Part shown: positions 318-27,186 of the stretch, piece after piece | Layout: every line of letters begins with the position of its first letter | Position numbering within the stretch: position 1 is the first letter of the stretch | Origin: an uncultured Alphaproteobacteria bacterium | GTDB taxonomy: Bacteria > Pseudomonadota > Alphaproteobacteria > HIMB59 > GCA-002718135 | DNA: 37,337 nucleotides | Assembly (NCBI GenBank): GCA_902522015.1 | Contig: CABYTX010000008.1 | Span: 1-37,337 of the forward strand | Reading direction: 5' to 3' | Notes under the pieces: model-generated | Told to the model about the DNA's origin: nothing | The model's database searches: none | Seen by the model: the letters and a program-made list of their open reading frames with translations, nothing else | Position numbers and translations under genes: made by a program

Positions 318-1931
318 CTAGGAAGATCTTTTATTCAGAAGATTGGTTAGCCAATCAGGATCCATTTCTGGTACTGAAGACAATAAAAGTTCTGTATAAT
401 CAGGATATGGTGGATTTAAAATTTTACTTTTCAAACCCTGTTCCACTACCTCACCTTGATACATAACAACTATTTCATCTGAGATTGCTTTAACTGTTGC
501 AATATCATGAGTAATAAAAATATAAGTTACACCAAGCTCTTTTTGTAATTTTTGGAGTAATTTTAATATTCCTTCTTGAACAATTTGATCTAGCGCTGAT
601 GTCACTTCATCACAAATAATTAAATCTGGGTTAGCCGCTAAAGCTCTTGCAATGCATATTCTCTGTTTTTGACCTCCAGATAATTCGGATGGTAATCTAT
701 CTAAAAAAGTTTCATCTAGCTCAATCATTTTTAATAATTCAATAACTTTTGCTTCTCTTTCTTTCCCTTTTATACCTTGATAAAATTCTATTGGCCTCCC
801 TATTATTTCATCAACAGTTTGACGAGGGTTCATTGCAGTGTCAGGCATTTGAAAAATTATTTGAATTCTTCTTAATTCTTCTTTTGACCTTTGCTCAAGT
901 TTTGGAGACAATTTTTTTCCATCAAAAATTATTTCTCCTTTTAATTGAGGAAGTAAGCCTGTAATTACTCTTGCTGTTGTTGATTTTCCTGATCCACTTT
1001 CACCAACTATAGCTACTGTTTTACCTTTAGGAATATCTATAGAAACATTGTGTAAGACCTTTGATGAGCCATATGCTGCATCAATATTTTTAATAGACAA
1101 CATATAATCTTCATTTGTTTCTTCAGGCTTGATCAGTGATCTTACTGACCATAGAGATTTGGTGTATTCTTCTTTTGGGTTTGATAGCATATCTCTTGTT
1201 TCAGCTTCTTCAACTTCTTCACCGTATCGCAAAACTTTTATTCTATCAGCCATTTGCGCAACTACGGCTAAATCATGAGTAATATAAATTGCTGCTGTAT
1301 TAAATTTATCTACTATAGATCTCATAGCAGATAATACTTCAACTTGAGTTGTTACATCTAAAGCTGTTGTTGGCTCATCAAATATAATTAACTCTGGTCT
1401 TGGGGACATAGCCATTGCAGTCATTATTCTTTGTAGTTGCCCTCCAGATACTTGATGCGGGTATCTATCTCCTATATTTTCCGCATCTGGAAGCTGTAGT
1501 GATTCATAAAGTTGAACCGCATCTTTTTTTAATACATCCGTTGGATTTATCTTTAATCTATTAGCAGCACTTATTGTTTGCTCCATTAATCTATGAGCAG
1601 GATTAAAAGATGCTGCTGCTGATTGAGCAACATAAGATATTTTAGTTCCCCAAATTTTTCTCTTTTCAAATTCAGTTAGTTTAGCGAGGTCTATGCCATT
1701 AAAATTAATTTCTCCCTTTATAATCTTACAACCTGGTTGGGTATAGCCCATTGCAGCTTTACCCATAGTAGATTTTCCGGCACCACTCTCTCCAATTAAT
1801 CCTAGTATTTCTCCTCTGTGTAAAGTCAAATCTACACCTTTTAAAATTTTATGCCATCTCTCATCTGAAAATCCATCAATATGGATATTTTTCATTTCAA
1901 GCAGGAGTTCTTTTGATTTATTTAACGTCAT
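318..1931 (-). CDS. dipeptide/oligopeptide-type ABC transporter ATP-binding protein, two fused NBDs (DppDF-like)
   Basis: Two Walker A motifs (GESGAGKST, GESGSGKST), two signatures (SGGQLQR, SGGQKQR), two Walker B regions (LIIFDEPTTALD, LIICDEVTSALD). Confidence 0.95.
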   Translation of the reverse strand: MTLNKSKELLLEMKNIHIDGFSDERWHKILKGVDLTLHRGEILGLIGESGAGKSTMGKAAMGYTQPGCKIIKGEINFNGIDLAKLTEFEKRKIWGTKISYVAQSAAASFNPAHRLMEQTISAANRLKINPTDVLKKDAVQLYESLQLPDAENIGDRYPHQVSGGQLQRIMTAMAMSPRPELIIFDEPTTALDVTTQVEVLSAMRSIVDKFNTAAIYITHDLAVVAQMADRIKVLRYGEEVEEAETRDMLSNPKEEYTKSLWSVRSLIKPEETNEDYMLSIKNIDAAYGSSKVLHNVSIDIPKGKTVAIVGESGSGKSTTARVITGLLPQLKGEIIFDGKKLSPKLEQRSKEELRRIQIIFQMPDTAMNPRQTVDEIIGRPIEFYQGIKGKEREAKVIELLKMIELDETFLDRLPSELSGGQKQRICIARALAANPDLIICDEVTSALDQIVQEGILKLLQKLQKELGVTYIFITHDIATVKAISDEIVVMYQGEVVEQGLKSKILNPPYPDYTELLLSSVPEMDPDWLTNLLNKRSS

Positions 1932-2838
1932 CTTTTAATCCGCTAGTAATGTAAAGATACCAATCAACAACAAAATTAATTGATACACAAAGTAAAGCAA
2001 TTGCAGCAGCTGGAATTAATGGTGTTAAACCTGCTGTTATATCATATTGCGCATATTGAATAAGTATTGCATTTTCCCTCACCATTGATGCCCAATCTGC
2101 TGAAGGGGGTTGAATGCCAATTCCTAAAAAACTTAAACTAGATATTGTAAAAATTATAAATATGAACCTTAAACCAAACTCAATAATCAAAGGCGAAGCT
2201 ATATTAGGAAGTATTTCTCTGAAAATAATATATGATAAATTTTCACCTCTTAATCTCGCGACCTCTACATATTCTAGAACAACTTGACCAACAGCAACTG
2301 ATCTTGATATTCTAAAAAATCTAGTTGACTCCAAAATTCCTAAAATGACAATTAAATTAAAATTAGTAGGTCCAAAAACTGATAAAAGTATAAAAGTAAA
2401 AATCATTACAGGAATAGCCATAAGCGTGTCTACTATTCTACTTAATAGCTGATCTAAATATCTTCTATCCAGAGCAGCTATAATTCCAAATACTGTTCCA
2501 ATTCCTAAAGCAATAAAAGTAGCCAATAAACAAATACCAATTGTATTTCTTGCAGCATAGATAATGCGAGAAAAAATATCTCTTCCAATTTGATCAGTAC
2601 CAAATATATGACCATCACCCCAAGGAGCATAAGCTACTGGGAATATTTCTGCTTCTCCATGTGGAGCAATTAAGGGAGCAAATATTGCAGCAAAAAAATA
2701 TATAAATAGTACAATCATACCAAACCAAGCTGAGATTGGAGCTTTTGATAAGGCAATTTTTAATCTTTCTAATCTAGTTCTTCTTTTAATTAAATTTGCA
2801 ACTTCACTTTTTGCAGAATAAGATAAATTTTCGCTCAT
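1918..2838 (-). CDS. ABC transporter permease, DppC/OppC family
   Basis: Hydrophobic; DppC-type features (FGTDQIGRDIFSRIIYAARNT, EYVEVARLRGENLSYIIFREILPN); overlaps ATPase gene by 14 nt. Confidence 0.93.
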   Translation of the reverse strand: MSENLSYSAKSEVANLIKRRTRLERLKIALSKAPISAWFGMIVLFIYFFAAIFAPLIAPHGEAEIFPVAYAPWGDGHIFGTDQIGRDIFSRIIYAARNTIGICLLATFIALGIGTVFGIIAALDRRYLDQLLSRIVDTLMAIPVMIFTFILLSVFGPTNFNLIVILGILESTRFFRISRSVAVGQVVLEYVEVARLRGENLSYIIFREILPNIASPLIIEFGLRFIFIIFTISSLSFLGIGIQPPSADWASMVRENAILIQYAQYDITAGLTPLIPAAAIALLCVSINFVVDWYLYITSGLKDDVK

Positions 2839-3833
2839 TTGGGATATAGTAACCTTGGGTTAGAAATAATTCCGATCAAGTCAGCAATTAAATTTAATAT
2901 TACATATGTTGATGCAAAAATTAATGCACAAGCTTGAACAACGGGTAAATCTCGATTATAGACTGATCCGACCATCAACCTACCAATACCTTGATAGTTA
3001 AAAACATATTCAACAACAACTGAGCCAATCAACATATAAGCTAAGTTTATTGCAATTACTTGAGAAATAGGTGCCCAAGCATTTGGAAGTGCGTGTTTGA
3101 CAATTACCTCGTATCTAGAAGCTCCCGATAATTTTGCCATTTCAATATATTCACTTGATAAGATATTTATTATCGCTGACCTTGTCATTCTCATCATGTG
3201 ACCCATAGTAATTAATGTCAAAGTAAAAACTGGAAGAGCAGTCCTGTAAAATCTTTCAGCCAAAGTTGAAGCTTCATCCACATTAGAAATAGTTGGAAAA
3301 ACTGGAAACAGTGTCGCTAGTAAAAGAATAAAAATATAGGCTGTAAAAAATTCTGGTGAAGATACGGTTACTAAGCTAACTCCAGTTGCTGACCTATCAT
3401 AATAAGAGTTTCTGTATAATGCTGCTGAGATACCTAAGATTAAAGATAGAGGAATAGCCAACATGGCGGCAACCCCTGTTAAAAATAATGTATTCTTTAA
3501 TCTGGGGACAATTAAACCAACAACTTCTCTAGACCTATCACCTTGATCCCCTTGAACTTTAGATCTTCCAGAGAAAGAACTACCAAAATCTCCTTGAAAA
3601 ACATTTCCTAACCAATCAAAATATCTTGTTACCGGAGGTTTATCTAAACCCAATTCTGCTCTTAGGGCTTTTACTGCAGATTTTGTTGCACTTTGACCTA
3701 ATATTTCCGTGGCAAAGTCTCCCGGTAAAAAAGAGAATGTACTAAATATTATTACTGAAAATGCAAAAACTGTAACGAGACCAAGGCTAAGCCTTAACAA
3801 AATTGTTCTAAATATTGGATGAATTCTACTAAT
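2835..3833 (-). CDS. ABC transporter permease, DppB/OppB family (start probably at 3833 rather than the TTG at 3800)
   Basis: DppB-type features (LPGDFATEILG, EYIEMAKLSGASRYEVIVKHALPNA); ORF track starts at TTG 3800, but AAGGAGGG (complement of 3838-3845) sits just before an in-frame ATT at 3833. Confidence 0.85.
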   Translation of the reverse strand: MSRIHPIFRTILLRLSLGLVTVFAFSVIIFSTFSFLPGDFATEILGQSATKSAVKALRAELGLDKPPVTRYFDWLGNVFQGDFGSSFSGRSKVQGDQGDRSREVVGLIVPRLKNTLFLTGVAAMLAIPLSLILGISAALYRNSYYDRSATGVSLVTVSSPEFFTAYIFILLLATLFPVFPTISNVDEASTLAERFYRTALPVFTLTLITMGHMMRMTRSAIINILSSEYIEMAKLSGASRYEVIVKHALPNAWAPISQVIAINLAYMLIGSVVVEYVFNYQGIGRLMVGSVYNRDLPVVQACALIFASTYVILNLIADLIGIISNPRLLYPK

Positions 3834-4034: not shown

Positions 4035-5663
4035 ATGAAAAATAAGAAAATAGACAAATACATTGAAGAACAGTCTTCAAAGCTAACAAAAGGGCTTATT
4101 GATAGAAGACAGTTCATGATGTCTGTTCTTGCTACTGGGGTCACGCTACCAATTGCATTATCATTAGCAGATAAAGCAGTTGCAGCTACACCAAAAAAAG
4201 GTGGACATTTAAGATGGGGTAATAGTGCAGCAGATGCAACTGATACTCTTGATCCAGCAACTTATCAGAGCTCATTTATGCAAGCTACTGCTTGGTCATA
4301 TCAGAACTGTCTAACTGTTGTTGATTCAGATCACACAATTGTTGGAGAGCTTGCTGAGTCAATTGAATCAGACGATGCTCAAACATGGGTATATAATCTT
4401 CGCAAAGGTGTTGAATTCCATAATGGTAAATCAATGACAGCAGAAGATGTTGTGCTCAACTATCAGTATCATATGAATCCAGATACTGCTTCGGCAGCAG
4501 GTGGACTTTTATCTCAAATTGAAACAGTTTCTGCTGATGGAAATGACAGAGTTATTTTTAAGCTAAAAGGTGCAAATGCCGATTGGCCTGCAATAACTAC
4601 TGACTATCACATTATGATTAAACCAACAAAAGATGGGGTTGTTGATGCTCAATCAACGATTGGAACTGGTCCATATATTATGGATGAATTCAATCCTGGT
4701 GTTGGTGCAAAATTTGGAAAAAGAAATCCAAATTATTTCAAAGGTGATAGTGTTGCGCACTTTGATTCAGTTGAAGTAATCGGAATTAATGATCCTGCTA
4801 CTAGACAAGCAGCATTATTAAATGGTGAAATTGACTGGATGAATGGTGTTGATCTTAGAACTGCTAATCTATTGACTAGAAATCCTAGTGTAGAAATTAC
4901 AGCAGCTTCTGGTTACGCTCACTATACAGCTCCAATGAGATTGAACGTTCCACCGTTTGATAACTTTGATGTGCGTATGGCAATGAAGTTTGCAATCAAA
5001 AGACAGGAAATTGTTGATAAGATTATGCTTGGATATGGTACTGTTGGTAATGATCATCCGATCTCTACTGCTCACCCATACCATAATAGCGCTTTAGAGC
5101 AGAGAGAGTTCGATGCTGATAAAGCTGCTTATCACTGGAAAAAGTCTGGAGTAAGTGGACCAATTGAAATTAGTACTTCTGAGGTTCCTTATGCAGGATG
5201 TACAGATGCAACTAACTTGATAGCAGCATCTGCTCAAGAATGTGGTATCGATCTTCGAGTTAAAAAAGAACCAGAAGATGGTTACTGGAGTAACGTATGG
5301 AACACTAAAGGTTTCAGTATGAGTTCTTGGGGTGGAAGACCTACAGAAGATATGATGTGGTCTGCGGCATTCACAGATGACACAGAGTGGAACGAAGCTG
5401 CTTGGGGTAATCTAGTTCAAACTGATTCAACTGTTCGTTTCAATGAACTTGTTAGATCTGCTAGATCAGAACTTGATGCAGAAAAAAGAAAATCAATGTA
5501 CTGGGAAGCACAAGCTCTTTGTAACTACGATGGTGGTGCAATTGTTTATGCATTTAACCAATACGTTGGTGCTGGTTCTAAAAAACTTGCTCACGGTGAA
5601 GATGTTGCTGGTAACTGGGAAAGTGACGGTAACAAACTTTCTGAACGTTGGTGGTTTGCATAA
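4035..5663 (+). CDS. ABC transporter solute-binding protein, family 5 (peptide/opine type), twin-arginine signal
   Basis: Start reassigned from 3939 to ATG 4035 with strong SD; Tat-like RRQFMMSVLATG; SBP_bac_5-like LDPATYQS, NLRKGVEFHNGKSMTAEDVV. Confidence 0.93.
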   Translation: MKNKKIDKYIEEQSSKLTKGLIDRRQFMMSVLATGVTLPIALSLADKAVAATPKKGGHLRWGNSAADATDTLDPATYQSSFMQATAWSYQNCLTVVDSDHTIVGELAESIESDDAQTWVYNLRKGVEFHNGKSMTAEDVVLNYQYHMNPDTASAAGGLLSQIETVSADGNDRVIFKLKGANADWPAITTDYHIMIKPTKDGVVDAQSTIGTGPYIMDEFNPGVGAKFGKRNPNYFKGDSVAHFDSVEVIGINDPATRQAALLNGEIDWMNGVDLRTANLLTRNPSVEITAASGYAHYTAPMRLNVPPFDNFDVRMAMKFAIKRQEIVDKIMLGYGTVGNDHPISTAHPYHNSALEQREFDADKAAYHWKKSGVSGPIEISTSEVPYAGCTDATNLIAASAQECGIDLRVKKEPEDGYWSNVWNTKGFSMSSWGGRPTEDMMWSAAFTDDTEWNEAAWGNLVQTDSTVRFNELVRSARSELDAEKRKSMYWEAQALCNYDGGAIVYAFNQYVGAGSKKLAHGEDVAGNWESDGNKLSERWWFA

Positions 5664-5678
5664 AATATTAATTTTCTT

Positions 5679-5702
5679 TGTGGCGCATTTAAATGCGCCA
5701 CA
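5679..5702. terminator. 24-nt perfect palindrome (TGTGGCGCATTTAAATGCGCCACA); terminator or mRNA 3'-stabilising hairpin
   Basis: 12-bp arms, GC-rich core in an AT-rich intergenic region right after the solute-binding protein gene; no clean U-tract follows. Confidence 0.6.
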
Positions 5703-5727
5703 CTATTTCTAGTAATCTTCCAAAAAA

Positions 5728-6651
5728 ATGTTTTTAAAAAAAAAGAAATATCTCTTTGATGGAGGTTCAGGTCAAACTTTAATGGAAATGGGTTTAGAAA
5801 CAAAAGGTGATCTTTGGTCTGCACAAGCTTTATTAAATGAAAATAATCACCAAATGGTTGTAGATATGCATAAGAATTTTATAAATGCAGGATCACAATT
5901 AATAGTTACATCAAATTTTAGTGTTAGAAGAAGACTGTTAAAAAATTACAATTTACTTGAAAAATTTGAATTTGGAATAAGATCTGCTGGAGCACTTGCA
6001 TTAAAAGCAAAAAATGAAAGTGATAAAAAAGTTATTGTTGCAGGCTCATTGCCAAATCAAGGTGTTACATATTCCCCAATACATTTTGAAACTGATGAAA
6101 CCATGTTTAACTATTTTCATGAAATTGCAAAGATATTAAATGATTACGTCGATATATTTTACTTAGATGTTTTGTGTTCCATCAAAGAAATAAAAATTGC
6201 TTTAGAGGCTTCAAAGGAATTTAATAAACAAGTTCTTGTAGGTGCTCACTTACGTTATGATGGAAAATTACCATCTGGAGAAAGTCTTGATGAGCTTTTT
6301 GAAACTATTCAAAAATTTAATTGTTGTGGCATAGTATCAGCCTGCGTATCACCTGAAATCATTAATTTGAGTATTCCTATATTTAAAAAACAAAAGCTTC
6401 CTTTTGGTTATAAAATGAATTTATTTAAAGAACTGCCTACTAGTAATGAAGAAAAATTTAATTCAGAGGGTTTTGAAGAAAATTATAATTATATTGATCC
6501 CATTGAGTTACTTGGGACTCGAAATGAAGAATTTGGAGAAGAAAAATATAAAAAGTTTGTTTTAAATTCTTTAAATGAAGGTGTTACTCTAGTTGGTGGA
6601 TGCTGTGAAGTAAAGCCACGACATATTGAAGCTATTAAGAATTTATTTTAA
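5728..6651 (+). CDS. homocysteine S-methyltransferase family protein (BHMT/MmuM-like)
   Basis: FDGGSGQTLMEMG N-terminus, Cys in GIVSACVSPE, C-terminal GGCCEVKPRHIEAI zinc-Cys motif. Confidence 0.88.
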   Translation: MFLKKKKYLFDGGSGQTLMEMGLETKGDLWSAQALLNENNHQMVVDMHKNFINAGSQLIVTSNFSVRRRLLKNYNLLEKFEFGIRSAGALALKAKNESDKKVIVAGSLPNQGVTYSPIHFETDETMFNYFHEIAKILNDYVDIFYLDVLCSIKEIKIALEASKEFNKQVLVGAHLRYDGKLPSGESLDELFETIQKFNCCGIVSACVSPEIINLSIPIFKKQKLPFGYKMNLFKELPTSNEEKFNSEGFEENYNYIDPIELLGTRNEEFGEEKYKKFVLNSLNEGVTLVGGCCEVKPRHIEAIKNLF

Positions 6652-6692
6652 AATTTTTTTTTTATTATTTTGTGATAAGTTGAATAAGTTTT

Positions 6693-7922
6693 ATGCGAGA
6701 TTTAGTTAGTAATTACAGATTTGTTGTAAAGCCAGTTATCAAGGAAACTGGTAGATCTTTAGATTTGGCTAGACCCATGAAAATACACCCTCTTACATAT
6801 CAAGAGTTACCACTTAACCCAGAATATACTAACTACGCAGATGGTAGATTTACGCTTGAAAAATTATCTCATGCTACAGCAGATGAAATGTATTGGAAAG
6901 CTAGACAGGAAATAATCTTACGTCATACAGGTGAGCATCCATACGAAATCTCTGGTCCGGATGCTGAAAATTTACTTCAACAAATATTTCCTAGAGATAT
7001 TTCAAAAGTAAAAATAGGACGATGTTCTTATCAATTTGCTTGTTACCACGATGGAGGAATGATTTCAGATGGATTATTATTAAGATTAGAAAAAAATAAA
7101 TTTTGGTTTGCACAAGGTGATGGACATTTATATAGTTGGTACAAAGCTCATTCGAAAAATTTAGATGTTGAAATTAAAGATCCAAACGTTTGGGTAAGTC
7201 AAATACAAGGACCTAAATCTCTAAAACTTTTAGAAAAACTTGTTGATAAACCATTAAAAAATAATTTTAATTATTTTGATTGGGTTGAAACTTCAATTGA
7301 TTCAGAAGAAGTGATTATAAGCAGAACAGGGTTTACAAATGAACTTGGCTGGGAAATTTATTTAAGACCAGAAAATGATTCAAAAAAAATTGGAGACTTA
7401 ATACTCAGTAAAGGTGAAGAAATGGGAATGATTCTAACAGCCTCACCAGGATTTAGATGTAGAAGAATTGAGGCAGGTCTCTTATCTGCTGGGAGAGATT
7501 TTACAAGAGATCGATCTCCATTTACTGTTGGATTAGGAAAGTTTATAGATTTTAATAAAGGAGATTTTATTGGAAGAGATTATTTACTTAATGCAAGCAA
7601 AGATTGTTTAACATGGGGTATGAGAGTGGAAAATAGCTTTGCGTTGGTTGATTCTGAAATTTCTATTAATAATAAAAAAGTTGGAATTGTAACTTCAAGT
7701 ACATGGTCGCCATTTCAAGTTTGTGGTGTTGCTATAGTTCATATGAATGATGTAGAATTTGGACCAGGCACAATAGTAGATGTTAGTTGTGATGATGGTA
7801 GTTTGCAAAAAGGTGAAATCTGTACTTTACCAATGTATGATGAGAAAGGTGAAATACAAAGAGGTTTAAAAGAAGATATCCCATCATGTCCAATACCTTG
7901 GAAGGGTATTTCAAAAAACTAA
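6693..7922 (+). CDS. GcvT-family folate-binding aminomethyltransferase-like protein
   Basis: RHTGEHPYEISGPDAENLLQQIFPRDI, GGMISDGLLLRL, SRTGFTNELGWEIYL, RRIEAGLLSAGRDF. Confidence 0.85.
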   Translation: MRDLVSNYRFVVKPVIKETGRSLDLARPMKIHPLTYQELPLNPEYTNYADGRFTLEKLSHATADEMYWKARQEIILRHTGEHPYEISGPDAENLLQQIFPRDISKVKIGRCSYQFACYHDGGMISDGLLLRLEKNKFWFAQGDGHLYSWYKAHSKNLDVEIKDPNVWVSQIQGPKSLKLLEKLVDKPLKNNFNYFDWVETSIDSEEVIISRTGFTNELGWEIYLRPENDSKKIGDLILSKGEEMGMILTASPGFRCRRIEAGLLSAGRDFTRDRSPFTVGLGKFIDFNKGDFIGRDYLLNASKDCLTWGMRVENSFALVDSEISINNKKVGIVTSSTWSPFQVCGVAIVHMNDVEFGPGTIVDVSCDDGSLQKGEICTLPMYDEKGEIQRGLKEDIPSCPIPWKGISKN

Positions 7923-7970
7923 TATATTTTGTAATAGAATTATAAATTATATTAGAATACAAATATTAAA

Positions 7971-9134
7971 ATGAAAGATCTCATTAAACCTAGCACTAAA
8001 ATCCATACTATAGATGATGCAATTAGATTGTCTAAAAAAAGATTGCCAAAATTAGTCTTTGATTTCATTGATGGAGCATCAGGAGATGATAAACTTGCTG
8101 AAATTAATAGTACAGCATTAGATCAGATTAGACTTGAACCAAAGGTTTTTAGAAATGTCGAGAATAGAAATTTAAGTAAAAAAATATTCGATTTTAATTT
8201 TGATTATCCATTTGGATTTGCGCCAATGGGAATGACTAATCTCTCATGGCCTGAGGCAGATAAAATGATAGCAAAGGAAAGTGCGTATAATAATATCCCT
8301 ACATGTGTTTCAATGGCTTCTAGTACTACACTTGAAGATATGTTTACTTTCTCTGAGGGTCATTCATGGATGCAAATATACATATTTCAAAGTGAAGAAT
8401 TTATTATGGAATTATTAAAAAGAGCAGAAGGTATAGGATATAAGGTTTTAATTCTTACTGTAGACGTTCCTATTCTATCAAGAAGAGCGAGAGATGATAG
8501 AAATGGTTTTGGTTATCCTTTTAAAATTGGTCCAAAACAATTTTTAGATTTTGCAATACATCCTCAATGGAGCTTAACAACTTTATTAAAGGGTGCTCCA
8601 AAACCAATGAATTATGTTACTTCTAAAAGTGGAAATCAAATTTTTAGAAGAAAAGAAAGTAGAGGCACTACTGATTGGGATACTTTAAAAAGAATTAGAG
8701 AAGCCTGGAAAGGAAAATTAATAATAAAAGGAGTCATGAACTCTGAAGATGCTTTAAAAATTAAAGACTCAGGTGCTGATGCAATTCAAGTATCAAATCA
8801 TGGTGGAAGACAATTAGATAGTGCTACTGCTTCTATTAACGCCTTACCATTAATACGAAAAGCTTTGGGAGACGATTTCCCAATACTTTTTGATAGTGGA
8901 ATTAGAAGTGGTAGTGATATTTTACGTGCATTAGCTCTGGGAGCTGACTTTGTTATGTTTGGCAGACCTCTAATGTATGCCATTGGTGCGGATGGTGCAA
9001 AAGGCCTTAGAAGAATCATTAACTTAATTAAAGAAGAGTTAAGTACAAATCTTGGATTAGTGGGGTTAACAGATATAAATGAAGTTGATAAAAAAATAAT
9101 AGCAGAGAAATTTTTTAAGGATATAAAGTATTAA
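7971..9134 (+). CDS. FMN-dependent alpha-hydroxyacid dehydrogenase/oxidase (lactate dehydrogenase LldD-like)
   Basis: FDFIDGASGDD, FAPMGMTNL, SNHGGRQLDSA active-site motif, DSGIRSGSDILRALALGADFVMFGRP. Confidence 0.93.
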   Translation: MKDLIKPSTKIHTIDDAIRLSKKRLPKLVFDFIDGASGDDKLAEINSTALDQIRLEPKVFRNVENRNLSKKIFDFNFDYPFGFAPMGMTNLSWPEADKMIAKESAYNNIPTCVSMASSTTLEDMFTFSEGHSWMQIYIFQSEEFIMELLKRAEGIGYKVLILTVDVPILSRRARDDRNGFGYPFKIGPKQFLDFAIHPQWSLTTLLKGAPKPMNYVTSKSGNQIFRRKESRGTTDWDTLKRIREAWKGKLIIKGVMNSEDALKIKDSGADAIQVSNHGGRQLDSATASINALPLIRKALGDDFPILFDSGIRSGSDILRALALGADFVMFGRPLMYAIGADGAKGLRRIINLIKEELSTNLGLVGLTDINEVDKKIIAEKFFKDIKY

Positions 9135-9135
9135 T

Positions 9136-10878
9136 ATGGCAGACAAAAAGATTAGAGGTGGGGCATTAGTTGCAAGAGCTCTTAGAGACAAAGGTATTGA
9201 TAATGTTTTTACACTTTCTGGAGGTTTTTGTAATCCAGCACTTGAAGGATTTATGGAGTGTCAAATTAATGTAATTAATTGTCCTCATGAACAAATTGCT
9301 GGTCATTTAGCTGATGGTCATACTAGGATATCAAGAAAACCATCAGTTTGTATTGTAGGGCCAGAAGGTTTTGCAAATGCAGTGCCTTCAATGATGGAAG
9401 CATGGGGTGAAAGATCACCTGTTATTTTTATAACTGGATCAAGTAGCTTAAAAAGACAAGGAGCAGGAGGTTTTAAGGAAATAGATGATGTATCTATTGC
9501 AGCACCGTTAACAAAATACAGTGCAAGTATAACAGATGGCAATAGAATAAGAGAGTTCATAGATAAAGCATATAGAATTGCAACAAATGGCTATCCTGGC
9601 GCAGTACATTTAAGTGTACCAGTAGATATAATGTTTTCATCATTTGCAGATGATGCAGGTTTAGAAGAAAGACCTTTTACTCATCAAAAGAAACCTCTAG
9701 CAAAAGCTTGGCCCGATCCTGAGAGTTTAAATGAAATATTTGATCTGGCAATTAATTCACAAAAACCTGTTTTTATCGGAGGGCATGGTGTTTGGTGGTC
9801 TAGTGCAGAAAAAAAATTAGAGCAAGCTGGCTTTGAATTAAATATTCCAATATTTAATATACCATACCATCAAAAGCTTTTAGGTGAAGAAGCAGACACA
9901 TACATGGGCCTGGCAGATATTCATCAATATCCTCCATCAAAAATGGCTCTTCATGAATCAGATTTAGTTCTTATGATTGGTGCACGTCTTGATAATCAAA
10001 TGAATTTTGGCAATCCTCCACTTTTTCCAAAAAGCACTAAGCTTGTTTGTATTAATGGATCGCATGAAGAAATAGAATTAAATAGAGCTGCAGATATTAA
10101 CTTACTTTGTGATCCTGGAGTTTTTTTGGATAAACTCATAGATTTAAAGAAAAACAGTAAATGGAAATTAAACAATGAATGGTTCAATAAGAATAAAAAA
10201 GAGAAAAAAAATTGGATCAATAAAACATTAGATGACTTAAATAAAGAAACTGAAGAGACCAAAAAAAATGGTGGAAAAATTCATCCTCTTCAATTAGCTT
10301 TAGATGTTCAAGAAGTATTAACTGAAAATGATTGGTTAGTTATTGATGGTGGTAACACGCATTTCTGGTCCGAGATTGCAATTAATATTGCTGGATCAAA
10401 AGGTAAAAAACTTGGAGGAATTTTACATCCAGGCACTTTCAGTATGTTAGGTGTTGGAGTTCCTTTTGCAGTATCAGCGAAAAATCTTAATCCTAAATCT
10501 AATGTTGTTTTAATAAGTGGAGATGGTGCATTTTTATCAGGCGGATTGTCAATTGAAGCTGCATTTCAAGAAAAAAAACCTATTGTTGTTGTAATAGATA
10601 ATAATGGAGGTCTTGACTGTATTTCTCAACAACAAGAGAGGTTATTTGATAGTGGGAAACACTTTGCAACTGATTTTAGAGATATTCCTTTTCATTCAAT
10701 TTTTGAAGGTTTTGGAGGGCATGGAGAATTAGTAACTAAAAGGGAAGATTTAGGCCCTGCTTTAAAAAGAGCGTTAGAAAGTGGTAAAACCGCATGTGTA
10801 AATGTTAAGGCTAAAGGTGTTATAAGTCCAATAGTTGCTGCAGTTAGTGATAAAAGAGATAAAGCATCTATAGAGTAG
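9136..10878 (+). CDS. thiamine diphosphate-dependent enzyme (acetolactate synthase/benzoylformate decarboxylase superfamily)
   Basis: N-terminal catalytic Glu context CPHEQIAGHLADG; ThDP motif GDGAFLSGGLSIEAAFQEKKPIVVVIDNN. Confidence 0.92.
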   Translation: MADKKIRGGALVARALRDKGIDNVFTLSGGFCNPALEGFMECQINVINCPHEQIAGHLADGHTRISRKPSVCIVGPEGFANAVPSMMEAWGERSPVIFITGSSSLKRQGAGGFKEIDDVSIAAPLTKYSASITDGNRIREFIDKAYRIATNGYPGAVHLSVPVDIMFSSFADDAGLEERPFTHQKKPLAKAWPDPESLNEIFDLAINSQKPVFIGGHGVWWSSAEKKLEQAGFELNIPIFNIPYHQKLLGEEADTYMGLADIHQYPPSKMALHESDLVLMIGARLDNQMNFGNPPLFPKSTKLVCINGSHEEIELNRAADINLLCDPGVFLDKLIDLKKNSKWKLNNEWFNKNKKEKKNWINKTLDDLNKETEETKKNGGKIHPLQLALDVQEVLTENDWLVIDGGNTHFWSEIAINIAGSKGKKLGGILHPGTFSMLGVGVPFAVSAKNLNPKSNVVLISGDGAFLSGGLSIEAAFQEKKPIVVVIDNNGGLDCISQQQERLFDSGKHFATDFRDIPFHSIFEGFGGHGELVTKREDLGPALKRALESGKTACVNVKAKGVISPIVAAVSDKRDKASIE

Positions 10879-10881
10879 GTT

Positions 10882-11217
10882 ATGGCAATTTTTTCTACAC
10901 ATTTACTAAACTCAATAGATGGTACACATGCAAGTGATGTAGAAATTGTTATTTATAAAGTAAATAATAATAACAAAGTTATATTTCTAGAAGATAAAAC
11001 AGATAGTTCTGGAAGAATGCTTAAAGAATTTGAATTAACTAAAGAAGATTGTGAAAGTGATTATGAAATGATAATTAATTCTGGTAAATATTTTAGAAAT
11101 ACTAGTGAAATAATTAATTCAATAAATGTTAAATTTAAAATGAAAGATCCTCTTAAAAAATATCACATACCTTTGATTATTTCTCCAAACGGATACTCAA
11201 TTTGGTGGTCTAAATAA
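10882..11217 (+). CDS. transthyretin-like protein (5-hydroxyisourate hydrolase family) with divergent C-terminus
   Basis: IFSTHLLNSIDGTHASDV and YHIPLIISPNGYS match the TTL/HIUase N- and C-terminal signatures, but the end is WWSK rather than YRGS. Confidence 0.82.
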   Translation: MAIFSTHLLNSIDGTHASDVEIVIYKVNNNNKVIFLEDKTDSSGRMLKEFELTKEDCESDYEMIINSGKYFRNTSEIINSINVKFKMKDPLKKYHIPLIISPNGYSIWWSK

Positions 11218-12339
11218 ATGAGTAATTCAGGATTAAACATGTCTAGACGTATTAGGAGAACTCCCTATACAGAGAAAGTAATTGAGGCTGGTGTAAGTGG
11301 TTTTACTGTAGTTAATCATATGCTTCTTCCAAAATCATATAAAGCAACAGTGGAAGAAGATTATTGGCACTTATCTAAAAATACTCAAATTTGGGATGTT
11401 TCATGTCAACGTCAGGTTCAAATAATAGGAGAAGATGCTGCAAAATTAATACAACTCATGTCTCCAAGATCAATAAAAGATATGCCTATTGGTAAATGTT
11501 ACTATTATCCAATGATTGATGAAAATGCAGGGATGATAAATGATCCTGTGCTTTTAAAATTAAGTGAAAATAAATATTGGCTATCAGTTGCCGACTCAGA
11601 TGTTCTTCTTTGGGCAAAAGGTTTGGCCGTAGGAAGAAATTTTAAAGTTGATATTATAGAGCCAGATATTTACCCCCTAGCAATTCAAGGTCCAAAATCT
11701 GAAGAATTAATGTCATCAATATTTGGTGAAAAAATTAAAAAATTAAAATTTTTTCATTTTTCTTTTTTTGAATTTGAAGGAACAAAGCAGATAATTGCAA
11801 GATCAGGATATAGCAAACAAGATGGTTTTGAGATTTATCTTAAAGGTTTTAGTTTAGGAAGAAAACTTTGGGAAACTATTTGGGAAGCAGGAAAAGATTT
11901 TAATATTTCACCTGGATGTCCAAATTTAATTGATAGAATAGAAGGCGGTTTATTATCCTATGGTAATGAATTTACTTTAGAAAACAATCCAATTGAATGT
12001 GGATTTGATAATTATTGTAAAAATTTATCTCATGATTTCATTGGAAAAAATGCACTAAAAAAAATATTAAATAATGGGATAGAAAAAAAAATAAAAGGAA
12101 TTACTTTTGATGGGTCCCCGACTCCTACGTGCACAATACCTTTTCCTGTATACTCAAAAAATAGATTTCAAATTGGTAATATCACCTCTGGTATTTATTC
12201 GCCATTTTTAAAAACAAATATTGGGCTATCAATGGTTGATAGAGATTATTGGAATGATGGGCAGAATGTTATCGTATTAACGCCAGACAATATTGAAAGA
12301 AAAGGTAAAGTATGCTCACTACCTTTTAATTATTCTTAA
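11218..12339 (+). CDS. DmdA-like (dimethylsulfoniopropionate demethylase family) GcvT-superfamily methyltransferase
   Basis: RRIRRTPYTEKVIEAGVSGFTVVNHMLLPKSY, WDVSCQRQVQIIGEDAAKLIQLMSPRSI, NDPVLLKL, SGYSKQDGFEIYL, GCPNLIDRIEGGLLSYGNEFTLENNPIECG resemble DmdA as recalled; no alignment run. Confidence 0.75.
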   Translation: MSNSGLNMSRRIRRTPYTEKVIEAGVSGFTVVNHMLLPKSYKATVEEDYWHLSKNTQIWDVSCQRQVQIIGEDAAKLIQLMSPRSIKDMPIGKCYYYPMIDENAGMINDPVLLKLSENKYWLSVADSDVLLWAKGLAVGRNFKVDIIEPDIYPLAIQGPKSEELMSSIFGEKIKKLKFFHFSFFEFEGTKQIIARSGYSKQDGFEIYLKGFSLGRKLWETIWEAGKDFNISPGCPNLIDRIEGGLLSYGNEFTLENNPIECGFDNYCKNLSHDFIGKNALKKILNNGIEKKIKGITFDGSPTPTCTIPFPVYSKNRFQIGNITSGIYSPFLKTNIGLSMVDRDYWNDGQNVIVLTPDNIERKGKVCSLPFNYS

Positions 12340-12340
12340 A

Positions 12341-12787
12341 ATGAGTCATTCAATTGAATTAAAGTGGGAATTAGGAGATCAAAAACTCGAATTCGGAAAA
12401 TACTTAACTGATCACACAGTAATGCTTAACGAAAATGTATCTATTGATGCGGGATCATCTCCAGATTATGGAGGAAGCGAAACTAATATTAATCCAGAGC
12501 AAAAACTAGCTGCAGCTGTAAGTAGTTGTTTTATGATGACGTTTTTAGCTTTAGCTGCAAAAATGAAATGGCCAGTTATTAATTACAAAGATAAAGCAAT
12601 TTCGTATTTAGGAAAAAATGCAGAGGGAAGAATGTACGTTAACAAAATAGAGCTTAATCCAGCTATAGTATTTGAAGGTAATTTTAATATTTCTGATGAA
12701 GAAATGAAAAAGATGAAAGAGAGATCACATAAGTATTGTTTTATCGCTAATTCACTATCTAAAGATGTTGAAATTCAAATCAATTAA
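12341..12787 (+). CDS. OsmC/Ohr-family protein
   Basis: Two conserved Cys contexts (AAVSSCFMMTFLALA, HKYCFIANSL); start reassigned from 12293 to ATG 12341, after the upstream stop. Confidence 0.85.
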   Translation: MSHSIELKWELGDQKLEFGKYLTDHTVMLNENVSIDAGSSPDYGGSETNINPEQKLAAAVSSCFMMTFLALAAKMKWPVINYKDKAISYLGKNAEGRMYVNKIELNPAIVFEGNFNISDEEMKKMKERSHKYCFIANSLSKDVEIQIN

Positions 12788-13579
12788 ATGAATTTTAATC
12801 TAATATTAAACGAAAAAAATAATAATATTTTTAATATTATTCTTAATGACCAGAAAAATCAAAATACTTTAGGCGAAAACATGATCAATGAATTAACATC
12901 AGCGCTAGATATTGCTGATAAAGATAATGAAGTAAAAGTAATTATTTTATCATCAAAAGGTAATATTTTTTGTGCAGGACATAATTTAAAAGATTTAAAT
13001 TCACAAAGATTGCAAAATGACAAAGGTGAAAGCTATTTTAAAAAAATATTTCAAATGTGTTCTCAACTTATGCTGAAAATTAATAAAAATAATAAACCAG
13101 TTATAGCTATGGTTGATGGTATTGCTACTGCAGCAGGCTGTCAGTTAATTTCTAGCTGTGATTTAGCTTACTCAAGTAGCAGAGCAAAATATGCAACTCC
13201 TGGTGTTAATATTGGATTATTTTGTTCTACACCAATGGTTCCATTATCAAGAACTGTAGGTAAAAAGCAAGCTATGGAAATGCTTCTCACTGGAGATCTT
13301 ATAGATGCAAATAAAGCATTAAGGATTGGTTTGATAAATGATATCTTTGAAGAAGATAGTTTAAAAGAAAATGTATTTCAAATTGCAAAAAAAATATCGT
13401 CTAAATCTTCTAATACTATTAAAATTGGTAAAGAAGCTTTTTACAAACAAAAAGATATGAATTTAGAAGACGCATATACTTTTACTTCAAATGTAATGAC
13501 AGAAAATATGTTACATGATGATTCCAAGGAAGGTATTGAAGCTTTTTTAGAAAAAAGAGAGCCAAACTGGAAAGAATAA
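12788..13579 (+). CDS. enoyl-CoA hydratase/isomerase family protein (ECHDC3-like)
   Basis: IFCAGHNLKDL, MVDGIATAAGCQLISSCDLAYSSSRAKYATPGVNIGLF crotonase motifs. Confidence 0.9.
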   Translation: MNFNLILNEKNNNIFNIILNDQKNQNTLGENMINELTSALDIADKDNEVKVIILSSKGNIFCAGHNLKDLNSQRLQNDKGESYFKKIFQMCSQLMLKINKNNKPVIAMVDGIATAAGCQLISSCDLAYSSSRAKYATPGVNIGLFCSTPMVPLSRTVGKKQAMEMLLTGDLIDANKALRIGLINDIFEEDSLKENVFQIAKKISSKSSNTIKIGKEAFYKQKDMNLEDAYTFTSNVMTENMLHDDSKEGIEAFLEKREPNWKE

Positions 13580-13586: not shown

Positions 13587-15059
13587 TTAAAATGGGTTTG
13601 GTTGAGATGGATTGGTAGCTAACCATGTAGATTTAGTCTGCATGTAACTTTGCATTCCCTCCCATCCATTTTCACGACCGTATCCTGATTGCTTAAAACC
13701 TCCAACTGGAGATTGAGTGGAAGCATTAAAATAGTTATTAATATAAACAGTTCCAGCTTCTATCTTATCTGCTAAACGTATAGCTTTATTAGTATCCTTA
13801 GTCCAAATACCTGCTGCAAGTCCATAAATAGTATCGTTTGCAATTTTAATTACTTCATCTTCATTTTCCCAAGATTGTATTGAGGCGACAGGTCCAAATA
13901 CTTCATTTTGAGCTAAATCATCTTCATTTGGAACATTATCAAAAATAGTTGGTCCAATATAGTACCCTTCAGATTTTTGTTCTTTCCTTCCATCAATTAA
14001 TAATTTTAAACCTCTTTTTTCAGCCGCTTCTATCTTAGATAAAATAAAATCATATTGCTCTTTATTTGCTATAGGTCCTATTTGTGTTGCTGTATCATTT
14101 GGGTGACCAACTTTAGCTTTTTTAACAACTTCTAATAAATTTTGAGTAAATTTATCTTTTATATCTTTATGCACTAATATTCTTGATCCTGAAATACAGC
14201 TATGACCTGAAACTGGAAAAATTCCTGAAACAACTCCATTAACTGATAAAGTTAAATCAGCATCTTTAAATATAATTTGTGGTGATTTGCCTCCTAACTC
14301 CATTATAATAGGTTTAACATTTTTGGATGCACATAAACTAGCTGCACTCCCCCCTTTTGTTCCACCTGTAAAACTTATCATTCTAACATCTTGGTGTTCA
14401 ATAAGAGGTGCGCCAGTGGTAGGACCAAAACCAGTAACAACATTAATTAAACCTTCTGGAAGATCAGCTTCTTCTAAAATTTTCATTAACTCTAATGTAG
14501 AGCATGATGCTCTTTCTGAAGGTTTAATTACAACTGTATTGCCTGCTGCTATTGCTGGCGCTAATTTCCAGATTAATGTTCCAATTGGTGAGTTCCAAGG
14601 AAGAATAAGTGCAACAACTCCAAATGGTTCCCATTTTAAATAATTATGCATATTGGGAACTTCTGAAGGTATCAATCTACCTTCATACTTGTCACACATG
14701 CCTGCATAATAATAAAAACTCTCAGTCTGCCAGCTTGTTAAAGAAGGAGTGATATTTTTTGGAAGTTTGCCGTTGTCTTTAGTTTCTATTTTTCCAATAT
14801 GTTCTGCATTTTTAGCAATAATATCTCCAATTCTAGTTAATGTTCTCCCTCTTTCTGCTGGATGCATTTTACCATAAGGACCATCATAATAAGCATGTTT
14901 AGCAGATGATACTGCAAGATTAATATCTTTTTTATTGCAATCAGGGACCTTTGCCCATACTTTTCCTATAGATGGATCCTCACTTTCAAAATATTTTTCA
15001 GAAGAAGGTTCATGCCATCTATTTCCTGCATAAAATTTGTAGGTTTGAATTTTGGACAT
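13587..15059 (-). CDS. NAD(P)-dependent aldehyde dehydrogenase
   Basis: LPWNSPIGTLIWKLAPAIAAGNTVVIKPSE, MELGGKSPQIIF, catalytic Cys in GHSCISGSR. Confidence 0.93.
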   Translation of the reverse strand: MSKIQTYKFYAGNRWHEPSSEKYFESEDPSIGKVWAKVPDCNKKDINLAVSSAKHAYYDGPYGKMHPAERGRTLTRIGDIIAKNAEHIGKIETKDNGKLPKNITPSLTSWQTESFYYYAGMCDKYEGRLIPSEVPNMHNYLKWEPFGVVALILPWNSPIGTLIWKLAPAIAAGNTVVIKPSERASCSTLELMKILEEADLPEGLINVVTGFGPTTGAPLIEHQDVRMISFTGGTKGGSAASLCASKNVKPIIMELGGKSPQIIFKDADLTLSVNGVVSGIFPVSGHSCISGSRILVHKDIKDKFTQNLLEVVKKAKVGHPNDTATQIGPIANKEQYDFILSKIEAAEKRGLKLLIDGRKEQKSEGYYIGPTIFDNVPNEDDLAQNEVFGPVASIQSWENEDEVIKIANDTIYGLAAGIWTKDTNKAIRLADKIEAGTVYINNYFNASTQSPVGGFKQSGYGRENGWEGMQSYMQTKSTWLATNPSQPNPF

Positions 15060-15108
15060 AATTTATTTAAACTTAAATATTTTCATTGGTCAACTTATTT
15101 GTGATTAA

Positions 15109-16746
15109 TTAATTTTTTAGTATCATATCTGATGCTTTTTCTGCTAACATAATTACAGATGCATTTATATTTCCACTTATCATATCTGGGAAAGAAGAAG
15201 CATCTACTACTCTTAGATTGTCTACTCCCCTAACTTTAAGCTGATTATCAAGTACAGCCATTTTGTTATTACTTGAACCCATAGCGCAAGTAGATGCAGG
15301 ATGATGACCGGTTTGTACATGATTTCGAACTGACTCTTTTAGATCTTGATCACTATTGATTTTTTTTCCTGGAAGTAATTCTTCCGAAACAATTTTAGCT
15401 AAACTGGGTTTTGATAATACTTCTCTTGTATGTTTCATCCCCTCTATCATATCTTCCATATCAGATGGATCGATGAACCAATTTGGATTTATATTAAGTT
15501 CATCATTAGGATTTGAGGTTTTAAGTTTTACACTTCCAGTGCTCTTTGGTCTTAATAAATTAATTTGAAAGTGTAATCCTGGAAAAGCTTTTTTACCTCT
15601 GGAAAAAAATAATGAACCAAAATTTAATAAATTATCTAAACTGATAGACCAGTTATCTTTTTCTTCTTTAAAACACATTGGTGTCATGAAAACTTGTATT
15701 TCAGGCATATCTTTTTCTCTTATTGCATGAAATAGATTTGTTGACCAAAAAGGAGCTGCGGCTAATCCTTGTTTAAATAAAATATATTTTAATCCCACAA
15801 TAATAGCTCTATCGATCCTTTGATATTTAGAGAAACTTAAATTGTTGTTTTGAAAAGCCCAATTCATTGGCATAACAGGATGATCGTGAAGGTTTTCACC
15901 TACTCCTGGTAAGTTAATTAATAATTCTATATTTTTTTCTTTTAAATGTTCTTCTGGACCAATTCCTGACAACATTAAACATTTGGGACTACCGAATGCT
16001 CCTAAAGATAATATTATCTCTGATGATGCATAAACTTCACCATTTGATAAAAGTAATCCTTTAGCTTTATTTTTCTCAATTAAAATTTTTATTACAGATG
16101 TATTTTTATAAATTGTTAAGTTACTAGGTTTAAATTTCAAATAAGCTTCTGCAGATGACTGTCTTTTACCGTTCCATACTTTAACATCATATCGGCCTAC
16201 TCCATTTAGATTGCCATTGTAAAAATCATTATTAATTTCTTCCCCAGCTTCAACACATGCATCAATAAATGCTTTATCGATAGAATTATAATTACCAGCT
16301 GGTGTAAGTTTTAAAGGACCTGAGTGTGAGTGATATTCATTTTTTTCTCTATGAAAAGCTGAAGCAGATCTTTTGAAATATGGTAATACATCATTATATG
16401 ACCAACCCTCTAAGCCCTTTTGTCTCCACCTATTAAAATCACCTGGAGCACCCCTCATGTAAATCATACCGTTTAAAAGAGAAGATCCTCCTAGTCCTTT
16501 ACCTCTAGGGTATAAAATTTTTCTATTATTTAAAGAAGGTTGAGGTATTGACTCAAAACCCCAATCAAATTTAGGATTTCCAAAAATGTATCCGTTACCA
16601 CCAGGCATTTGAGTGAATAAACTTTTTCCTGACCCCCCTGCTTCTATTAGTAATACCTTTATATCTTTATTTTCAGATAATCTTGAGGCTAATGTACAGC
16701 CAGCAGAACCTCCTCCTGCTATTATATAGTCAAATGTTTTTTTCAT
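15109..16746 (-). CDS. GMC family oxidoreductase (choline dehydrogenase-like)
   Basis: FAD motif DYIIAGGGSAGCTLASRLSE, GKGLGGSSLLNGMIYMRGAPGDFNRW, C-terminal TGHHPASTCAMG and SGNINASVIMLAEKASDMI. Confidence 0.95.
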   Translation of the reverse strand: MKKTFDYIIAGGGSAGCTLASRLSENKDIKVLLIEAGGSGKSLFTQMPGGNGYIFGNPKFDWGFESIPQPSLNNRKILYPRGKGLGGSSLLNGMIYMRGAPGDFNRWRQKGLEGWSYNDVLPYFKRSASAFHREKNEYHSHSGPLKLTPAGNYNSIDKAFIDACVEAGEEINNDFYNGNLNGVGRYDVKVWNGKRQSSAEAYLKFKPSNLTIYKNTSVIKILIEKNKAKGLLLSNGEVYASSEIILSLGAFGSPKCLMLSGIGPEEHLKEKNIELLINLPGVGENLHDHPVMPMNWAFQNNNLSFSKYQRIDRAIIVGLKYILFKQGLAAAPFWSTNLFHAIREKDMPEIQVFMTPMCFKEEKDNWSISLDNLLNFGSLFFSRGKKAFPGLHFQINLLRPKSTGSVKLKTSNPNDELNINPNWFIDPSDMEDMIEGMKHTREVLSKPSLAKIVSEELLPGKKINSDQDLKESVRNHVQTGHHPASTCAMGSSNNKMAVLDNQLKVRGVDNLRVVDASSFPDMISGNINASVIMLAEKASDMILKN

Positions 16747-16806
16747 TTTTTAAAAATATAAATTATACTAATAATTAATTTATAAGTAAACTCGAGTAAA
16801 TTAAAT

Positions 16807-17625
16807 ATGAATAATTACAAAGATTGGATTGGAAAAAAAATTTCAAGATGTGATATTATTACTCCTCGATTAGTTGATCATTTAAAAAAAACAATCGATC
16901 AAAACTGTTTAAGTGGTCAAACTGTGCCTGAGGGAATTTTTTTATGTTTATGCCCAGATGCGGCTTCAACAAATGATTTAGATAAAGATGGAAATACAAA
17001 ATTAGGAATCTTCTTACCTAAGTTACCTTATAAAATTAGAATGTGGGCTGGTGGTAAAATAAAAATATTTGATGAATTTGAAATTGGATCTGAAATTAAA
17101 AAAAATTCAACAATTTCTAGTATTGAATTTAAAGAAGGTAGATCAGGCAATCTATGTTTTGTTAATATTAATCATGAATATTTAAATAAAAATAAATTAA
17201 TAATATCAGAAAATCAAACTGCTGTTTATAGAGAAAAAATAAATAAAATTTCCATTACTCCTAAAATAAAAGATGAATTAAAATTAATTGATAAAGTAGA
17301 AATTTTTAGTTCATCAACTTTGTTATTTAGATATTCTGCTTTAACTTTTAATGGACATAAGATTCATTATGATAATGATTATACAAAAAATTATGAGGGC
17401 CATACGGGATTATTAGTCCATGCACCTCTTCAAGCAACTTATCTTTTAAATCTTGCAAAAAAAAACGAGATTGAGTTCAATTCTTTTGAATATAAAGCTA
17501 CAGCACCTCTTGTATATAACAATAATTTCTTTGTAGAAATTGGTGAAAATCGAGATGATGAAATTATTGGAAGAATTCTTAATGAAAAACAAGAAATTAC
17601 AATGATTGCAAAATATAAAAAATGA
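16807..17625 (+). CDS. HTD2/mesaconyl-CoA hydratase-like hot-dog dehydratase (MaoC-related)
   Basis: RYSALTFNGHKIHYDNDY and GLLVHAPLQATYLL match the HTD2/Meh hydratase signature. Confidence 0.8.
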   Translation: MNNYKDWIGKKISRCDIITPRLVDHLKKTIDQNCLSGQTVPEGIFLCLCPDAASTNDLDKDGNTKLGIFLPKLPYKIRMWAGGKIKIFDEFEIGSEIKKNSTISSIEFKEGRSGNLCFVNINHEYLNKNKLIISENQTAVYREKINKISITPKIKDELKLIDKVEIFSSSTLLFRYSALTFNGHKIHYDNDYTKNYEGHTGLLVHAPLQATYLLNLAKKNEIEFNSFEYKATAPLVYNNNFFVEIGENRDDEIIGRILNEKQEITMIAKYKK

Positions 17626-18947: not shown

Positions 18948-18948
18948 T

Positions 18949-19809: not shown

Positions 19810-19859
19810 TAATTAATTAAATATACTAAGATAATTTATTCAGATATAAATATTTCAAA

Positions 19860-20999: not shown

Positions 21000-21000
21000 A

Positions 21001-24723: not shown

Positions 24724-24726
24724 TAA

Positions 24727-26214: not shown

Positions 26215-26497
26215 TATTCTTCTTATAAATTAATATCAAATTTCTTAAATAAATAAATATACCGAATAATTGACCTGAAATTATTACAGGATCCTTCCTA
26301 AATATTGCATAAGTAAGAAGTCCTATTCCCCCAAATATACTTAGATACCAGAAAATTATTGGAATTGAACTGACTCCCTTTGTTTCAGAATATACCCATT
26401 GTACTATAAATCTTGATGCAAAAAGACCTTGACCAGTAAAACCAATAATCAAAAAAACTAATTCAGTTTTACTAAGATTAATTACAAAATCAAACAC
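26201..26497 (-). CDS. lipid-A-disaccharide synthase N-terminal domain (LABN) small membrane protein
   Basis: GQGLFASRFIVQWVYSETKGVSSIPIIFWYLSIFGGIGLLTYAIFRKDPVIISGQ. Confidence 0.88.
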   Translation of the reverse strand: MFDFVINLSKTELVFLIIGFTGQGLFASRFIVQWVYSETKGVSSIPIIFWYLSIFGGIGLLTYAIFRKDPVIISGQLFGIFIYLRNLILIYKKNNEKS

Positions 26498-26498
26498 G

Positions 26499-27179: not shown

Positions 27180-27186
27180 ATTATTT

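Follow-up and report, generated by a model that had tools for sequence, protein, structure and literature searches.

Organization of the locus

We analysed a 37,337-nucleotide stretch (the window) of contig CABYTX010000008.1 from an uncultured alphaproteobacterium that we infer to belong to the HIMB59/AEGEAN-169 group (AEGEAN-like hereafter). Positions 4035-13579 carry nine genes on the forward strand, which an initial annotation had described as one candidate operon for catabolism of a methylated onium compound. Four of these genes form a conserved core, and the nine do not make up a single evolutionary unit. The core consists of genes for a flavin mononucleotide (FMN)-dependent 2-hydroxyacid dehydrogenase (FMNdh; 7971..9134) of the mandelate/lactate type; a thiamine diphosphate (ThDP) enzyme of a family without a name, the module's most conserved gene (9136..10878); a transthyretin-like protein (TTL; 10882..11217) with a Transthyretin domain; and a DmdA-family tetrahydrofolate demethylase of a module-specific clade carrying the changes Y32V and E63Q (11218..12339).

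Upstream of the core lie genes for a substrate-binding protein (SBP; 4035..5663), a homocysteine S-methyltransferase family protein (HMT; PF02574; 5728..6651) and a GcvT-like aminomethyltransferase (6693..7922), and downstream lie those for an OsmC family protein (12341..12787) and a crotonase that scored above the cut-off for the PRK08139 type (12788..13579), all present as additions in the window's genus. All nine open reading frames (ORFs) were located where they had been placed, and Pfam and NCBIfam bore out their family assignments (SBP_bac_5, S-methyl_trans, GCV_T, FMN_dh, three TPP domains, Transthyretin, GCV_T for DmdA, OsmC and ECH_1, respectively). The tight spacing reported from position 9134 onward was confirmed, with gaps of 1 nt between the FMNdh and ThDP genes, 3 nt between those for ThDP and TTL, 0 nt between TTL and DmdA, 1 nt between DmdA and OsmC, and 0 nt between OsmC and the crotonase. 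Upstream, the gaps were wider (64 nt between SBP and HMT, then 41 and 48 nt).

Conservation of the four-gene core

We counted co-occurrence starting from the ThDP gene and included only loci with room for the neighbour in question. In AEGEAN-like loci, the FMNdh, TTL and DmdA genes were found in the same order and on the same strand in 50 out of 50, 51 out of 51 and 50 out of 50 loci, respectively. Each of the three also stood in core order and strand in all 28 SAR11 loci (L083-L110; Pelagibacteraceae/Pelagibacterales) and in all three SAR116 loci, and the Rhodobacteraceae-like loci with a ThDP gene kept this arrangement for FMNdh in 11 out of 13, for TTL in 12 out of 13 and for DmdA in 12 out of 13 cases. 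The labels SAR116 (family f104) and Rhodobacteraceae (family f23, relatives of G766) are presumptive. Because core order and strand were kept in the AEGEAN-like, SAR11 and SAR116 loci, the arrangement is far beyond chance. The claim that the genes travel together thus held for the four core genes across distantly related marine alphaproteobacteria, but was not borne out for SBP, HMT, OsmC and crotonase, which were not conserved beyond the window's genus. SAR11, SAR116 and two Rhodobacteraceae-like loci have orthologous SBPs (54-88% mutual identity) near an S51 peptidase gene; the window SBP shares 28-29% identity with these proteins and is not their orthologue.

Identity between groups was 67-85% for the ThDP enzyme, compared with 55-72% for DmdA and 28-60% for TTL; therefore, the ThDP enzyme is the most constrained part of the module. 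Among genomes of the host's order that were at least 80% complete, with the host's own genome added, the ThDP gene was found in 27 out of 70 searched, all in the window's genus. Genomes in this order are small (for example, G110 is a single contig of 1.41 Mb); the window's genome (G000) is incomplete, at 1.03 Mb and 66% completeness, and gene absences there were not used as evidence. The gene was present in few genomes of the class sample and in 13 out of 299 Rhodobacteraceae-like genomes, each from a different genus, and no ThDP relative was found on plasmids at E<=1e-60. In a tree of ThDP enzymes, the AEGEAN-like sequences fell among the SAR11 sequences, which together with the patchy distribution suggests that the module spread by horizontal transfer. 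HTCC1062 is probably without the module, because none of the four aminomethyltransferases on its published list lies in such a neighbourhood.

Features of the core enzymes

The catalytic His, Arg and Lys of FMNdh were invariant across the aligned members, and its nearest full-length solved relative is (S)-mandelate dehydrogenase. The ThDP enzyme keeps its three TPP domains, the catalytic Glu and the GDG...NN motif. It fits no named equivalog, scoring below the cut-off of all NCBIfam models shown (267.6 vs 587 bits at best), with acetolactate synthase, 2-hydroxyacyl-CoA lyase and oxalyl-CoA decarboxylase among the equivalogs compared.

TTL resembles the 5-hydroxyisourate (HIU) hydrolase of purine catabolism in retaining the equivalents of His9 and Arg47 (99 out of 99 members) and of His98 (all 98 members with an alignment reaching it). 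Unlike that enzyme, it ends in a [YF]SxWxS-type sequence rather than YRGS, falls below the cut-off of the HIU hydrolase model TIGR02962 (70.7 vs 87.45 bits) and is accompanied by no other purine genes. Because the three catalytic residues are kept and the YRGS terminus is absent, TTL probably hydrolyses a different lactam or amide.

The module DmdA passed the NCBIfam PRK12486 cut-off for dimethylsulfoniopropionate (DMSP) demethylase (532.5 vs 410 bits), retains the folate residues and shares 48-49% identity with the structurally characterised DmdA of Pelagibacter ubique. It nevertheless formed its own clade apart from the studied DmdA proteins of P. ubique and Phaeobacter inhibens, with support of 99 and 97 in two trees (Shimodaira-Hasegawa-like approximate likelihood ratio test). 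At position 32 (P. ubique Tyr32), Tyr was present in 39 out of 39 canonical proteins and Val in 91 out of 92 module proteins; at position 63 (P. ubique Glu63), 34 out of 39 canonical proteins had Glu and 5 out of 39 Gln, compared with Gln in 91 out of 92 module proteins. Earlier work has described DmdA-like proteins that fall outside the DmdA clade (PMC7487153). We also considered Tyr at the position of P. ubique W197 as a mark of another substrate and rejected it, as the DmdA of P. inhibens DSM 17395, which is clustered with dmdD, an acyl-CoA dehydrogenase gene and an AMP-binding gene, has Tyr there too.

A P. ubique-type DmdA resided alongside the module in 13 out of 14 module-bearing SAR11 genomes and in G078, G037, G088 and G031. 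Four genomes of the host's order have no ThDP gene (G002, G049, G110 and G118), and we found no module-type DmdA in them. Given its separate clade and its presence as a second copy beside a canonical DmdA, the module protein probably does not serve DMSP alone. On one SAR11 contig (L084; G516:C41), the P. ubique-type and module DmdA genes lie about 18 kb apart.

Variable neighbours of the core

The genes around the core differ between lineages. In the window, HMT scored 82.6 bits against the betaine-homocysteine methyltransferase (BHMT) model (cut-off 338 bits), with the GGCC zinc motif and an upstream Cys present. The GcvT-like protein is nearest to the C-terminal GcvT domain of trimethylamine N-oxide demethylase and shares 62-66% identity with its counterpart in SAR11 modules, which have a GcvT-like protein, an S51 peptidase and a thiolase 3' of DmdA. 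SAR116 modules have an S51 peptidase, MttB (PF06253) and LysR, and the Rhodobacteraceae-like loci add MttB, PanE/ApbA, a FAH hydrolase, Ldh_2, acyl-CoA dehydrogenase and tripartite ATP-independent periplasmic (TRAP) or dpp importers. MttB stood beside the module in six loci, and the S51 peptidase adjoined the SBP in SAR11, SAR116, L218 and L236. Single loci showed further partners: BKACE and a carnitine 3-dehydrogenase (647 vs cut-off 592 bits) directly 3' of DmdA in L238, and a Cys/Met-metabolism pyridoxal phosphate (PLP) enzyme at that place in L243. In L131 and L219, an asparaginase-like gene precedes the ThDP-TTL pair and DmdA is absent.

Genome G1085 contains distant ThDP paralogues (36-38% identity). 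One (L247) lies with a ProX/ChoXWV-type (choline/betaine) ATP-binding cassette (ABC) transporter and a GMC oxidoreductase; the other (L248) lies with a GMC oxidoreductase, a DmdA above the cut-off (420 vs 410 bits) and a crotonase. A member of the wider ThDP family thus accompanies a DmdA-type demethylase in another arrangement of genes, and its sister copy lies next to onium transport. Both loci also encode a small protein of 97 amino acids.

The window's OsmC and crotonase are 49-52% and 49% identical, respectively, to those of Roseobacter operons that combine DmdA-like, OsmC, enoyl-CoA hydratase and acyl-CoA synthetase genes. The order DmdA-OsmC-crotonase is the same in both, but the Roseobacter DmdA-like protein belongs to another clade (39% identity) and these operons have no FMNdh, ThDP or TTL gene. 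The operon recurs, together with an Lrp regulator, on Roseobacter plasmids (L209, 4992-9078; L210, 6001-10148; L212, 6001-10099), where its DmdA-like gene is annotated as glycine cleavage T.

As a separate observation, the module is adjoined by an arylmalonate-decarboxylase-like gene and an ABC transporter of the spermidine/putrescine type in the SAR11 loci L086, L097, L104 and L108 (14.4-21.7 kb) and in L243 (14.0-19.7 kb) of a Rhodobacteraceae-like genome, with an M24 peptidase added in SAR11; this is possibly an ectoine-type locus travelling with the module.

Proposed function

From these comparisons we propose a horizontally spread catabolic module in which an onium 2-hydroxyacid would be oxidised and decarboxylated in the manner of mandelate, coupled to folate-dependent demethylation; we rate the chances of this proposal as about even. 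The imported compound would be a methylated onium acid, either a sulfonium or a quaternary ammonium, or its conjugate. The DmdA paralogue and a helper would transfer one or two methyl groups to folate, the putative helper being the GcvT-like protein with HMT in the window, the GcvT-like protein in SAR11 and MttB in SAR116 and Rhodobacteraceae-like genomes. The FMN enzyme would oxidise the 2-hydroxyacid backbone to a 2-oxoacid, the ThDP enzyme would decarboxylate or cleave that product, as MdlC follows MdlB in mandelate degradation, and TTL would probably hydrolyse an amide or lactam intermediate. What remains would enter acyl-CoA metabolism through the crotonase in the window, thiolase in SAR11 and acyl-CoA dehydrogenase elsewhere. 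The lead candidate substrates are 4-dimethylsulfonio-2-hydroxybutyrate (DMSHB) and its trimethylammonio analogue, the simplest compounds that would need oxidising, decarboxylating and demethylating steps.

In the mandelate pathway, the FMN 2-hydroxyacid dehydrogenase MdlB acts first and a ThDP enzyme, the benzoylformate decarboxylase MdlC, second. The module likewise has an FMN dehydrogenase followed by an enzyme of the ThDP decarboxylase/carboligase superfamily, adjacent and co-conserved, although this enzyme is nearer to the acetolactate-synthase and 2-hydroxyacyl-CoA lyase types and the module adds a demethylase and a hydrolase. MttB, the carnitine dehydrogenase with BKACE, and the choline/betaine transporter beside the distant ThDP paralogue point to onium chemistry, and the changing methyltransferases suggest more than one methyl transfer. 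The 2-hydroxyacid and 2-oxoacid enzymes that recur beside the core (Ldh_2, PanE/ApbA and the FAH hydrolase) also speak for the proposal, and we count the conservation of an SBP alongside the S51 peptidase in three lineages in its favour.

Several points weigh against this scheme. In group f75, FMNdh and DmdA were each found in only 1 out of 4 loci and TTL in 4 out of 4, three loci keeping only the ThDP and TTL genes. The core has no aldehyde dehydrogenase. In mandelate, glycolate and lactate enzymes, a Tyr (Y26 of mandelate dehydrogenase, Y24 of glycolate oxidase) helps to bind the substrate carboxylate; 85 out of 86 module FMNdh proteins, in a departure from the mandelate enzyme, have Phe at this site, and FMNdh may therefore act on something other than a simple 2-hydroxyacid. 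An amide-linked substrate, which the scheme explains only in part, is suggested by the importer of peptide type, the S51 peptidase and the asparaginase-like neighbour. The donor atom is also in conflict, as MttB argues for nitrogen and DmdA for sulfur. The onium, demethylation and 2-oxoacid chemistry put forward in the initial annotation looks reasonable in kind, given the methyltransferase, carnitine and betaine-transport partners, but the substrate, and the free 2-hydroxyacid group assumed for it, are still conjectural in view of the Tyr-to-Phe change.

One more specific possibility, which we regard as rather unlikely, is that the substrate is a quaternary-ammonium acid (a hydroxyacid betaine or an amide conjugate) from which MttB, the GcvT-like protein or HMT, and the DmdA paralogue take off N-methyl groups. 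The six MttB loci, the carnitine dehydrogenase and BKACE in L238, the choline/betaine transporter adjoining a ThDP paralogue, and HMT in the window with betaine- and choline-related genes downstream would fit, and MttB-family proteins (pfam06253) have been implicated in glycine betaine demethylation by marine bacteria (PMC12478193). However, characterised DmdA enzymes use a sulfonium, DmdA-type methyl transfer from a tertiary amine would be chemically harder, and SAR11 and AEGEAN-like modules show no MttB adjoining the core. The HMT, GcvT-like and MttB partners, and once carnitine dehydrogenase with BKACE, recall glycine betaine and carnitine catabolism (BHMT or MtgB, GcvT-type proteins, carnitine dehydrogenase and BKACE), but these shared neighbours are lineage-specific and the four core genes are foreign to those pathways.

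It is unlikely, though conceivable, that the substrate is instead the sulfonium DMSHB, a phytoplankton DMSP precursor that arises in the transamination route of DMSP synthesis (PMC11306096). DMSHB would be oxidised to its 2-oxoacid and decarboxylated to DMSP-aldehyde, with demethylation by the DmdA paralogue before or after, yielding methylthio compounds for sulfur-requiring SAR11-like cells. This would suit a core whose only demethylase is of the DmdA family, the Cys/Met-metabolism enzyme in L243, and the crotonase, thiolase or acyl-CoA dehydrogenase downstream in different lineages, as expected for acids of the methylmercaptopropionate type. Against it, the MttB neighbours favour quaternary amines, the resident canonical DmdA would suffice were the product DMSP, the core has no enzyme for the aldehyde, and we came across no published case of such genes catabolising DMSHB.

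We consider it improbable that the core serves to break down an amide or ureide without an onium group by means of the peptide importer, an S51 peptidase or asparaginase, the HIU-hydrolase-like protein, the FMN enzyme and a ThDP carboligase, with DmdA recruited only to deliver methyl or one-carbon units to folate. The S51 gene next to the SBP, the asparaginase-like gene of the DmdA-less loci and the three catalytic residues of TTL agree with it, but the MttB, carnitine and betaine-transporter links and the second ThDP-DmdA pairing in L248 would be left unexplained, and TTL lacks the YRGS terminus. Very improbable, finally, is the reading that the locus is a conventional operon for DMSP demethylation, with dmdA and its accessory genes, in a new neighbourhood: the module DmdA exceeds the DMSP demethylase cut-off with its folate residues kept, shares the Tyr at the W197 position with P. 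inhibens DmdA and is followed in the window by a crotonase, much as in the DmdA-DmdB-DmdC-DmdD pathway, but it is a second copy, its clade stands apart and has Y32V and E63Q in almost all members, its cluster is without dmdB and dmdC, the crotonase is not close to DmdD (23% identity to that of P. inhibens), and that pathway has no role for FMNdh, the ThDP enzyme or TTL.

Gonyol, dimethylsulfonioacetate, carnitine, hydantoins or purines, and betaine-lipid head groups were also considered as substrates, and support for them was insufficient. Gonyol and dimethylsulfonioacetate are consumed by marine bacteria via unidentified routes, and the latter is not accepted by known DmdA (PMC7221440).

In line with the initial annotation, which knew of no pathway with this gene set, we found no description of it in open-access papers, most subscription journals lying outside the search; DMSP, DmdA and carnitine all go unmentioned in the AEGEAN-169 genome paper. 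Returning to the onium 2-hydroxyacid scheme, a wider and more doubtful extension, offered tentatively, is that SAR11, AEGEAN-169-like and SAR116 bacteria may share a route, not yet described, that handles a second class of onium 2-hydroxyacids (sulfonium or ammonium compounds such as DMSHB) by means of a DmdA paralogue annotated as DMSP demethylase. If so, part of the ocean's annotated DMSP demethylation potential would belong to another compound. Cells that rank among the most abundant in the surface ocean carry the module, and since its DmdA scores as a DMSP demethylase in a curated model, DMSP gene surveys may count an enzyme for another substrate. As the core also occurs in SAR116 and Rhodobacteraceae-like genomes, the question of its substrate can be tested directly.

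Importer, regulatory features and flanking regions

The initial annotation overlooked three genes on the reverse strand, dppB-dppC-dppDF (318-3800), which are the rest of an ABC importer with the SBP and are divergent from it. They encode a fused DppD-DppF-like ATPase of the oligopeptide/nickel ABC ATPase families (318..1931), a DppC-like permease (1918..2838) and a DppB-like permease (2835..3800). The ATPase is kept within the genus and has a homologue in its place in SAR11 and SAR116; DppB is 39-43% identical to its SAR11, SAR116 and Rhodobacteraceae-like counterparts. The SBP ORF opens at 3939, and the ATG at 4035 is the better start because it gives a Tat-like RRQF signal.

A perfect 10-bp hairpin, likewise missing from the initial annotation, lies 3' of the SBP gene on the forward strand (5679-5702; -16.9 kcal/mol, z = -5.8), with an identical copy in 25 relatives. 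The SBP message may stop or be attenuated here, which may uncouple SBP expression from that of the catabolic genes; alternatively, the hairpin may be a 3' mRNA stabiliser. A promoter scan gave no more hits than in shuffled sequence. S-adenosylmethionine riboswitches govern the response of OsmC and homocysteine methyltransferases to sulfur limitation in P. ubique (PMC5069961), but a search of the window at Rfam gathering scores detected no known riboswitch.

Directly downstream of the nine genes, the window (13587-22431) encodes, mostly on the opposite strand, betaine aldehyde dehydrogenase (BADH)-like, choline-dehydrogenase-like GMC oxidoreductase and PrpD-like proteins, together with a gamma-butyrobetaine/trimethyllysine-dioxygenase (BBOX)-like protein and a second aldehyde dehydrogenase. 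This neighbourhood is kept across the genus, possibly as a second onium locus. Farther on, positions 23755-33723 hold genes for sugar nucleotides and glycosyltransferases (GDP-mannose dehydratase, fucose synthase-like and GT10-like), which probably form a surface polysaccharide island.

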